A DNA stretch of 33,995 bases from Terriglobia bacterium (GTDB lineage: Bacteria > Acidobacteriota > Terriglobia > Terriglobales > Acidobacteriaceae): NCBI GenBank assembly GCA_020073105.1, contig JAIQFW010000023.1, forward strand, positions 1-33,995. Direction: 5' to 3'. The translations under genes were made by a program, and so were the position numbers. This document shows positions 5,706 through 24,014 of this stretch, piece by piece; position 1 is the stretch's first letter, and every line of letters starts with the position of its first letter. The notes below the pieces were generated by a model. It did not search any database. It had not been told where the DNA came from and worked only from the letters and a program-made list of their open reading frames with translations.

Positions 5706-5726
5706 CTCCTACATAGTTTGTAGGAG
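5706..5726 (-). promoter_or_regulatory. ribosome-binding-site hairpin of the fluoride riboswitch
   Basis: A perfect 7-base inverted repeat (ctcctac / gtaggag, 7-base loop) joins the 3' end of the aptamer to the crcB ribosome binding site. The aptamer's ctcctac can pair either inside the aptamer or with the Shine-Dalgarno region, as expected for translational control. Confidence 0.7.
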
Positions 5727-5784
5727 TTATCAGCCGGGGCCGTTTACTAAGTCGATCCGGGCGGTTGAGGCGAACTCCATCGCC
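5720..5784 (-). promoter_or_regulatory. fluoride riboswitch (crcB motif)
   Basis: The reverse strand starts with GGCGATGGAGTTCGCC and ends with CTGATAACTCCTAC, the two conserved blocks of the crcB-motif fluoride aptamer. A variable stem-loop lies between them. It sits 24 bases upstream of the crcB start on the same strand. Fluoride should stabilise the aptamer and free the ribosome binding site. Confidence 0.9.
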
Positions 5785-5796
5785 GTAATTACTTTT

Positions 5797-21124: not shown

Positions 21125-21201
21125 GGCCCCGTAGCTCAGATGGATAGAGCAGCGGTTTCCTAAACCGTTGGTCGGCAGTTCGACTCTGCCCGGGGCCTCC
21201 A
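21125..21201 (+). tRNA. tRNA-Arg (anticodon CCT)
   Basis: A full cloverleaf can be drawn: acceptor GGCCCCG with CGGGGCC, D arm GCTC...GAGC, anticodon stem GCGGT/ACCGT with loop TTCCTAA (anticodon CCT, reading AGG), T stem GGCAG/CTGCC with loop TTCGACT. The discriminator is T, and CCA is encoded in the gene (21,199-21,201). Confidence 0.95.
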
Positions 21202-22181: not shown

Positions 22182-22769
22182 TCACTGAAACGCGCCCGCG
22201 AAGAAGATCTCGGTGAACTGCTGCGCGATCTGCTCTGCGACCAGCCGCCCCTCGGGTTTGTACCACTGGTAAATCCAATTGATCATCCCCAGCAGGGCAA
22301 GCGTGGCGGCGCGGGGCGTGACTGTCCGCTTCGACTGTCTCGCCTGTTGGACCGCCGCAACCAGCTTCTCCACAAATTGCATGTACTCTTTCTTTCGCGC
22401 GTTGATGGGTTTGCGCAGCGATGGAGGCAGCGGGTGGTGTTCATGCAGAAGAACAGTGATTTCACGGTCGCGGAAGCTGAGCACGACATCGACGTGCAAC
22501 CGGATCAAGGCCCGCAGCCCCGCTTCCGGATCGGCGATGGTGCGCACCGGCTTGACCACGCGCTCCTCCGTGATGTCCAGGGCGTGGTTCATGAGATCGA
22601 ACAGGATTTCATCTTTGCTCTGGAAGTGGTGATACAGGCCACCTTTGCTGAGCTTGAGCGCGGCCGCGACATCGTTCATCGAAGTCGCGTCGTATCCCCG
22701 CTGGTAGAACAACCGGGCGGCGGTGCGCAGAATTTCCTGCCGCGAGTCGAGCGTGGTTTCACGCGCCAT
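22182..22769 (-). CDS. TetR-family transcriptional regulator
   Basis: This 195-residue repressor-type protein has an N-terminal DNA-binding three-helix domain (RQEILRTAARLFYQRGYDAT then MNDVAAALKLSKGGLYHHFQ, about 9-50). A C-terminal ligand-binding helix bundle follows, with LSFRDREITVLLHEHHPLP. The SKGGLYHHFQSKDEIL recognition helix resembles regulators of acyl-CoA or steroid metabolism, but the ligand is not assignable. It is convergent to scpB. Start ATG 22,769 is clear. Confidence 0.88.
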   Translation of the reverse strand: MARETTLDSRQEILRTAARLFYQRGYDATSMNDVAAALKLSKGGLYHHFQSKDEILFDLMNHALDITEERVVKPVRTIADPEAGLRALIRLHVDVVLSFRDREITVLLHEHHPLPPSLRKPINARKKEYMQFVEKLVAAVQQARQSKRTVTPRAATLALLGMINWIYQWYKPEGRLVAEQIAQQFTEIFFAGAFQ

Positions 22770-23006
22770 CAGCGGACAGAATATACAGCGCGCGGCAAGA
22801 ATGCCAATCTCCGATTTGCGAGTATTTCAAGGGACGCGACACAGATCGGCGAGCGGCAAGAAAAATGTCGCTGCCGCTTGTCTGTGCATAACGCTGTGCA
22901 AAACTGGTCCGATCGGTTTTTGCCTTCTGTAAGCGGTGACTTCTCAGAGCTTTGCGCTCGCTGCCTTCGTCGTCTTCACGCATCGAGTTTGCACCGAAAA
23001 ATGGCG

Positions 23007-23035
23007 TTGACAATTCGCCGTCGAGTGCTTAGTGT
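23007..23035 (+). promoter_or_regulatory. promoter candidate for the structured RNA
   Basis: A perfect TTGACA (23,007-23,012) is followed after 17 bases by TAGTGT (23,030-23,035). The -10 box is weak (3 of 6). No protein gene on this strand follows closely, but the hairpin-rich region does. Confidence 0.4.
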
Positions 23036-23040
23036 GGCTT

Positions 23041-23265
23041 CCGTCGACGGCCGAAAGGGTTGGCTCAAATAAAATTAGCCGGTCCGAAGTAGGCTGGGTG
23101 AGCGGTTTGGCGGGGCAACCCGTTGGGCACCCAGACCTGAAAAAACCAACGGCTCTGCGAGGGGAAGTTGGGGTTTGGGACTGCGAAAGCAGTGGTCACA
23201 TCGAAGGCTGTGACGGTACGTGCATCCACGCCGTCAGTTCCCTCGCAGGAGCTGGCGGTTAGAGC
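23041..23265 (+). ncRNA. candidate structured non-coding RNA (unassigned)
   Basis: The region folds into nested hairpins on the + strand. Stem A is AGG-CTGGGTG (23,091-23,100) with CACCCAG-A-CCT (23,128-23,138), enclosing CGGG-GCAA-CCCG (23,111-23,122). A long stem B pairs AACC, GCTC and TGCGAGGGGAA (23,144-23,166) with TTCCCTCGCA, GAGC and GGTT (23,238-23,260). It encloses ACTGC-GAAA-GCAGT (23,180-23,193), GTCACA...TGTGAC (23,195-23,214) and GACGG-TA-CGTG-CATC-CACG-CCGTC (23,212-23,235). The last two compete for the same GAC. A further weak hairpin lies at about 23,059-23,083. Two GNRA tetraloops fix the strand. No known class was recognised; a 76-codon open frame over the same bases is not protein-like. 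Confidence 0.55.
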
Positions 23266-23330
23266 ACAACCAATGTCACAGCCTTTTCCTTTTGTCCTGC
23301 AATATCCCTCCAGATCTTACTGATAGAGCA

Positions 23331-23939
23331 TCAAGCCGCTTTGGCCAATACTTGTGAAGCGCTGCCTCTCTTGAGGACGGCCGCCGCCACCAGTCCTGCA
23401 ACCACATACCCAACAAATTCGATGGTCATGTACGCCGCCGTGTAATTGGAAGGGAAGCCGTACCAGTTCCAATAAGGGATGTTGGTCGTAATGGCGGCCA
23501 TGAGGGCGGCAACCACCACGAATCCTAGACGGGACATAAAACTTGTAAGACTGGTCTGAGCCAGCAGGAAGGCCAGGAACAGAGCTTCCAGAAACTCCGT
23601 TAAGAACTCCATCCCCAGCTTACGCGGCGTAATCGATTTCTCCCCTGGCGGGTGGTAGATCAAAACGCCGGACGGGTTGCTGGCCAGCTTCTGATCGTAC
23701 TGCTGCATGGCCGCTCTTTGTTGTTCGTGAGTTGGGTTGGCACCGACGCCCATGCCGGGGAAGAAGTAGAACCCGGTGGCTCCGCCCAACTGAGTCTGCA
23801 TAGCGCTCAGGACGCCCTGCTCGTTGGGGATCTCCTGGACTCCGGTCATGCCCAGTGGCAGAACCATGTGCGCAACGGAAGACCAGAGAAACATCGCAAT
23901 CCCACCCAATACACCCGCGAGTAGAACACGCTTTGCCAT
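23331..23939 (-). CDS. membrane protein of unknown function
   Basis: This protein has 202 residues from ATG 23,939, which has ggagg 5 bases upstream. Four hydrophobic segments are seen: VLLAGVLGGIAMFLWSSVAH near the N-terminus, LEALFLAFLLAQT in the middle, FVVVAALMAAITTNIPYWNW and IEFVGYVVAGLVAAAVL at the end. The middle region has GFYFFPGMG and NPSGVLIYHPPGEK, probably outside the membrane. I do not recognise a family with certainty. No operon partner is evident. Confidence 0.6.
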   Translation of the reverse strand: MAKRVLLAGVLGGIAMFLWSSVAHMVLPLGMTGVQEIPNEQGVLSAMQTQLGGATGFYFFPGMGVGANPTHEQQRAAMQQYDQKLASNPSGVLIYHPPGEKSITPRKLGMEFLTEFLEALFLAFLLAQTSLTSFMSRLGFVVVAALMAAITTNIPYWNWYGFPSNYTAAYMTIEFVGYVVAGLVAAAVLKRGSASQVLAKAA

Positions 23940-24014
23940 AACTGCCTCCTGTCGGTCGGCAATTATGCGGTCAAGCTGCGGGATTTGCAAACCGGTCTTA
24001 TGGCCGGGCCATCG

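Follow-up and report, generated by a model that had tools for sequence, protein, structure and literature searches.

A conserved structured RNA gene of the Terriglobales and a neighbouring RNase HI paralogue as its candidate partner

The stretch of DNA analysed here (the window, 33,995 nt of contig JAIQFW010000023.1 from a Terriglobia bacterium) contains a gap of 561 bases between the start of a TetR-family gene (22769) and the next gene (23331-23990, minus strand), and no convincing open reading frame was found in it. The original prediction placed an undescribed structured RNA on the plus strand of this gap, at 23041-23265, and suggested that its inner hairpins could form a two-state switch. 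The question is thus whether the gap holds an RNA gene and, if so, what its product might do.

The elements named in that prediction are present in the window: the hairpin CGGG-GCAA-CCCG at 23111-23122, the hairpin ACTGC-GAAA-GCAGT at 23180-23193 and TTGACA at 23007. The predicted end lies too early, since the unit runs to about 23294 and includes a terminator stem, GGCTGTGAC/GTCACAGCC, with a T-rich tail that had been missed. In an alignment of copies with their flanks, conservation has sharp borders: it covers TTGCACC..AAA..GGC.TTGACA, a 17-nt spacer and TAnnnT, restarts at CGTCGACGG and ends after the T-run that lies 3' of the terminator stem. As a sigma-70 type promoter (TTGACA-17-TAGTGT, directly 5' of the RNA start), an RNA of about 252 nt and an intrinsic terminator all lie within these borders, the unit appears to be a complete gene, 23041-23294. 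We infer that the RNA begins at CGTCGACGG (marked CGUCGACGG) and ends at the terminator U-tract. A simple promoter scan missed both signals, TAGTGT failing its -10 rule and the loop enclosed by the terminator being long. The features of the locus are as follows (X is the RNase HI-like protein described below).

22182-22769, minus strand: divergent TetR-family gene (Pfam TetR_N, TetR_C_24), located where other copies have the X gene
22883-22903, plus strand: tandem upstream element TGTGCATAA-N3-TGTGCAAAA, lying about 146 and 158 nt 5' of the RNA start
22989-23006, plus strand: conserved block TTGCACCgAAAAn..GGC immediately 5' of the -35 box, seen when 33 copies were aligned together with their flanks
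23007-23012, plus strand: -35 box TTGACA
23030-23035, plus strand: -10 box TAGTGT after the 17-nt spacer, read from the sequence and from the conserved TAnnnT of the alignment
23041-23294, plus strand: non-coding RNA gene of about 252 nt (homologues by blastn, covariance model and nhmmer; alignment A3)
23048-23096, plus strand: P1 stem 23048-23052/23092-23096 with inner stem 23057-23064/23078-23085; pairs 11-58, 12-57, 22-45 and 19-48 covary (E<0.05)
23098-23199, plus strand: multi-branched domain closed by 23098-23103/23194-23199, 98.1% of cells paired
23105-23128, plus strand: hairpin with a GNRA tetraloop (GCAA in the window), several pairs of which covary
23131-23178, plus strand: hairpin arm CCAGACC/GGTTTGG with a conserved A-rich internal loop and the end loop UGCGAG (23156-23161)
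23180-23193, plus strand: hairpin ACTGC-GAAA-GCAGT, GAAA in 125 of 131 copies; pair 157-166 covaries (E 2e-4)
23203-23294, plus strand: 3' domain, with the stem 23203-23214/23275-23286 (99.4% paired) around the hairpin 23230-23259, then the T-rich tail
23242-23247, plus strand: loop CUCGCA, putative kissing partner of UGCGAG at 23156-23161, 98.5% of cells paired

The RNA fold comprises three domains, two GNRA hairpins and one complementary loop pair. The plus strand of 23041-23265 folds at -99.6 kcal/mol (z -3.7), a stability reached by none of 200 dinucleotide shuffles, and the minus strand is weaker (z -2.0, with 4 of 200 shuffles as stable). Among 131 distinct full-length copies (alignment A3), 95.8% of the cells over the 85 pairs of the named structure are paired. 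Double changes occur at 56 pairs and in 624 cells; shuffles give 180 such cells and slid controls no more than 169. Covariation was assessed with our own R-scape-like procedure, which uses a tree, a Fitch-based null and a G statistic with APC, was restricted to the structure and was run with 150 simulations. Against this phylogeny-aware null, 16 of the 85 pairs covary at E<0.05, and none do in six slid structures; the 12 top-ranked of about 31,000 column pairs all lie within the structure. A stricter all-pairs version with 12 simulations left two significant pairs, both in the structure. The opposite pattern, an open reading frame kept by synonymous changes, was looked for and is absent: at most 30 of the 131 copies are stop-free in any one frame, and at most three on the plus strand. 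The protein-coding reading was rejected, as the frames are not conserved. With homologues, compensatory changes, a conserved promoter and terminator, and no match in Rfam, the predicted undescribed RNA is well supported, and 23041-23294 is, as judged from sequence comparison, almost certainly a real non-coding RNA gene.

Every one of the 131 copies has a GNRA sequence in the first hairpin loop (GCAA, GCGA, GTGA, GTAA or GAAA, with four common versions), and the conservation of this loop together with that of the GAAA loop suggests tertiary docking. Another element of the original prediction, a long stem with arms TGCGAGGGGAA and TTCCCTCGCA, can be found from 23156 and 23238, and its core TGCGAGG/CCTCGCA is kept with all seven pairs in 113 of 130 copies. 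Its extensions fared differently: GCTC/GAGC is partially conserved (45 of 72), while GGAA/TTCC and AACC/GGTT are kept in only 1 of 129 and 4 of 131. A kissing interaction between the loops UGCGAG and CUCGCA is favoured over a continuous stem because each segment is part of a hairpin loop, and both of these hairpins have covarying stems: pair 128-137, which closes the UGCGAG hairpin, covaries with E 0.007, and pair 218-235 in the stem of the second loop hairpin has undergone 36 double changes. The two loops are exactly complementary in 114 of 131 copies, and in one copy (L069) both loop sequences are changed and still pair, which is one compensated double change. Complementarity thus speaks well for the kissing loop and covariation weakly, since the loops hardly vary.

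A search of the blastn type with 23000-23300 revealed five copies in the source genome (78-100% identity) and copies in 23 of the first 100 relatives, all of the same family and with up to five per genome. A covariance model (R1) was positive in 90 of 250 sampled genomes of this Terriglobales family. Outside the family, a class-wide sample of 299 genomes gave only two positives, both of them matches on small contigs, and a phylum-wide sample of 346 genomes gave none. Scanning 84,980 species genomes with a sequence pattern gave at least 115 stretches; the titles among the matches listed were those of Acidobacteriota MAGs (Terriglobales, Acidobacteriaceae, Ca. Sulfotelmatobacter and one Ca. Acidiferrum), the exceptions among them being one Verrucomicrobia (L143) and one Xanthobacteraceae (L190) MAG, both with short contigs. 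These two contigs in unrelated bins are probably binning errors, or may have been acquired by horizontal transfer. Viral contigs and phage and plasmid records contained no match to the RNA.

Several copies are incomplete or arranged in an unusual way. The fifth copy of the source genome (L034, G000:C247:1833-2088) has neither the promoter nor the 5'-most 17 nt of the RNA, though the remainder is kept, and is probably decaying. Five others (L071, L140, L143, L182 and L186) carry clean internal deletions of 40-130 nt, with whole hairpins gone, and may be pseudogenes or minimal variants. At L054, L104 and L150 the RNA occurs in tandem, the copies being spaced by about 425-540 nt and differing individually in sequence. 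Assemblies break at or beside the RNA in G042 (contigs C292, C306, C23 and C24), G189 (C48) and G269 (C175), and the number of copies is therefore underestimated in draft genomes.

In open reading frame clustering around 39 loci, a single gene recurred close to the RNA; it lies on the opposite strand and starts about 250 nt upstream. Its product, X, has about 133 aa, matches the RNase H domains PF13456 and PF00075 above cut-off and gives a phmmer E of 1e-18; the family assignment of X rests on such profile matches, a single-sequence AlphaFold model having a pLDDT of 41. Divergent X lies upstream of 93 of the 134 unique copies that have at least 800 nt of upstream sequence. Nearly all genomes tested also encode a housekeeping RNase HI that is 41-51% identical to X, and RNA-free genomes of the family have this enzyme alone. 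X is therefore predicted to be a second, dedicated RNase HI, in a clade separate from the housekeeping enzyme. X was present in 82 of the 250 family genomes, the RNA in 90 and both in 80, counts that are not phylogenetically independent. The two genomes with X only (G189 and G269) have it at the very end of a contig, as expected because a repeated RNA would break the assembly there. As for RNA-only cases, G004 and G011 contain a more divergent X (52-54%), some others have the RNA, or a fragment of X, at a contig edge, and genus g32 (G158, G175 and G272) combines a divergent RNA with the housekeeping enzyme alone. Two copies in this genus (L092 and L093) represent a divergent 259-nt RNA downstream of a sugar-transporter-like gene, in a genome without X, and carry a perfect CRP-type site.

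The catalytic residues of X were compared with the D-E-D-D set. The first three acids are kept (D in 85/85, E in 85/85 and D in 84/85), and the fourth is Asn in 78 of 78 X proteins versus Asp in 26 of 26 housekeeping proteins. Both Cys of CRSPRLYSLNWTCRKLA are likewise invariant in 78 of 78 X proteins, with Val and Ala at these positions in housekeeping RNase HI. Residue N121 of X aligns gaplessly with D125 of RNase HI from Sulfolobus tokodaii (Sto-RNase HI), a residue whose change, according to a review (PMC9719913), greatly affected dsRNA cleavage by that enzyme and not its RNase H activity. By its domain, X belongs with the type 1 RNases H of the RVT_3 group, such as LC11-RNase H1 (3U3G), the Rv2228c domain (3HST) and Sto-RNase HI (2EHG), and it differs from these in the Asn at the fourth acid, the two invariant Cys and the linkage to the RNA.

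TTGAC occurs at -33/-34 in 92 of the 93 X-linked copies, and TGTGNAWAA at -135 to -160 in 68 of them; at 8 or more of 9 matches, the latter is found in 75 of 93, compared with 2 of 930 shuffles. In the whole genome of the window (G000), the composite TGTGNA-N6-TGTGNAWAA has two sites, both at RNA copies (22883 in the window, and C218), and in G045 and G014 its sole site is at the RNA. The composite is read as a dedicated upstream element of the RNA gene and a putative binding site. Eight X-unlinked copies from several genera lack the TTGAC -35 box and instead have TGTGAN6TCACA with 9-10 of 10 matches at -47 to -49, centred near -40/-41 (the criterion being near -41.5), and none of the 93 X-linked copies has such a site. 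A CRP-type promoter, comparable to CRP class II promoters, is predicted for these eight copies.

The window copy is itself an X-unlinked paralogue in which promoter, upstream element, fold and terminator have all been kept. In the tree it is closest to L170 (support 0.90), a copy that also adjoins a TetR gene, 77% identical to that of the window, in the same TetR-RNA arrangement. The position thus seems conserved and the window copy is probably functional.

The best explanation of these data, to which we give a probability of about 0.55, is that the RNA acts in trans as a structured component or controller of an RNase H-like ribonucleoprotein with X. The separate parts of this proposal are of unequal standing: action in trans is very probable, a functional partnership of RNA and X in some form is somewhat probable, and direct binding of the RNA by X is possible, though it falls a little short of even odds. 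The RNA and X would act together as follows. X has kept D, E and D and has Asn as the fourth acid; since Asn replaces an acid that is important for dsRNA and matters little for hybrid cutting in Sto-RNase HI, X might be able to bind a helical RNA and leave it intact. On this view the two would make up a ribonucleoprotein, or the RNA would regulate the access of X to RNA/DNA hybrids, and extra RNA copies, some of them under the CRP-type promoter, could supply RNA under other conditions. More tentative is the specific notion of an RNA-controlled RNase H, in which the large structured RNA would serve X as partner or guide, X being a small RNase H-like protein that lacks the residue linked to dsRNA cutting and keeps those for hybrid cutting. 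The partnership is favoured by the near confinement of X to RNA-bearing genomes (80 of 82) and by the tight linkage of the main copy. Against it stand the X-free genomes with divergent RNA (G158, G175 and G272) and the window copy without an adjoining X, which show that the RNA is able to persist apart from X; moreover, divergent neighbours may be inherited together without any interaction.

The strongest competitor is a minority possibility of some weight, in which the RNA is a trans-acting regulator independent of X, either sequestering a protein like 6S/CsrB or base-pairing, and X is a co-regulated linked neighbour. The RNA paralogues would then respond to different regulators, which agrees with their differing promoters (TGTGAN6TCACA in eight X-unlinked copies, none in 93 linked ones) and with RNA lacking X in G158/G175; however, X branches as a clade of its own, has invariant residues specific to its lineage and is hardly ever present in the absence of the RNA, and no known protein-binding repeat was identified in the RNA. 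The same asymmetry, X practically never without RNA and RNA occurring without X, would suit an inhibitor RNA loosely of the type III toxin-antitoxin kind, with X as a harmful nuclease that the RNA keeps in check. In type III systems the antitoxin is a tandem-repeat RNA located upstream of the toxin and co-transcribed with it. Here, in contrast, the genes are divergent with separate promoters, the RNA has no tandem repeats, the synteny is stable family-wide and plasmid and phage records gave no match, which makes an inhibitor improbable. An RNase H next to an RNA also recalls ColE1 RNA II, and the RNA could be a replication or R-loop element, acting as a primer or giving rise to RNA/DNA hybrids that X would process; an upstream 9-mer, TGTGGAAAA, indeed resembles a DnaA box. 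Yet the RNA ends at an intrinsic terminator, its copies lie at many chromosomal places, and the composite element is confined to RNA loci, unlike a DnaA site. Within about 1.5 kb of dnaA, TGTGNAWAA is absent in five of six genomes and has one site in the sixth, and a replication role is considered quite improbable.

Two further readings are weaker still. A dispersed mobile or decaying repeat, MITE-like or retroposed, would account for up to five copies per genome, for near-identical and tandem copies in some genomes and for the 5'-truncated and internally deleted ones. It is strongly disfavoured because of the covariation, as promoter, fold and terminator persist alongside compensatory changes and the main copy has a fixed locus; the window region has no terminal inverted repeats, and no phage, viral or plasmid record matched. 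The lowest probability of all is assigned to a cis-acting two-state switch or riboswitch, the function suggested by the original prediction from two alternative hairpins in the window sequence. These alternatives are not conserved: GTCACA/TGTGAC is full in 15 of 129 copies and GACGG/CCGTC in 83 of 129, while the terminator stem, which uses the same bases, has all nine pairs in 126 of 131 and shows covariation at pairs 186-279 and 188-277. With the competing hairpins weakly conserved and the terminator nearly invariant, the switch is unsupported; a conserved same-orientation downstream gene cluster is also lacking among about 39 loci, which makes a cis-regulatory switch unlikely. An OMEGA RNA (IscB/TnpB) or a retron ncRNA was considered and rejected, RNase HI being the only recurrent close neighbour recognised.

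As to known RNA families, a search of the RNA region against Rfam 15 gave no match at the gathering threshold and, at E<=10, two matches that fell well short of the cut-off, the better one with E 0.54. HEARO and other Rfam families did not match, nor did Acido-1 (RF01686) and Acido-Lenti-1 (RF01687), which are likewise candidate non-coding RNAs of Acidobacteria and which the original prediction had named for comparison. A literature search found no description of the RNA. Soil-1 and Solibacter-1, candidate RNAs of soil metagenomes or Solibacter, were reported in 2010 without an Rfam accession (PMC2864571), and Soil-1 was found only in soil (Weinberg 2010, PMC2864571). The new RNA may be identical with the Soil-1 motif, which, like Solibacter-1, is known here by description only. 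By itself the RNA would be a new orphan non-coding RNA family. The RNA-X system was rated as unlike any known kind. It resembles OLE RNA of Firmicutes in being a long, complex, conserved stand-alone RNA with an adjacent conserved protein gene and an unexplained role, but the present RNA has 252 nt rather than about 600 nt, has an RNase HI paralogue as its partner, occurs in several copies per genome and, unlike OLE RNA, lacks Rfam similarity. With 6S RNA and global regulatory RNAs it shares a stand-alone gene, a strong promoter and a terminator; 6S RNA, in contrast, is one long bulged hairpin, whereas the new RNA is multi-domain with GNRA and kissing loops, multicopy and of narrow taxonomic range.

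Few large, highly conserved non-coding RNAs lie outside Rfam, and such RNAs have often opened the way to new ribozymes or ribonucleoproteins. The present one, found in several copies in uncultured Acidobacteria of soil and peat, comes with a concrete candidate for a protein partner, so its function is directly testable, and the paralogues with CRP-type promoters offer a regulatory entry point. If a dedicated RNase H paralogue is indeed tied to this structured RNA, non-coding RNA and RNA/DNA-hybrid metabolism would be connected in a new way.

Two other RNAs were recognised elsewhere in the window: a fluoride riboswitch aptamer (RF01734) at 5714-5793 on the minus strand, with 51 bits against a cut-off of 34, and a tRNA-Arg (CCT) gene at 21125-21201 on the plus strand, which also matches the Rfam tRNA family.
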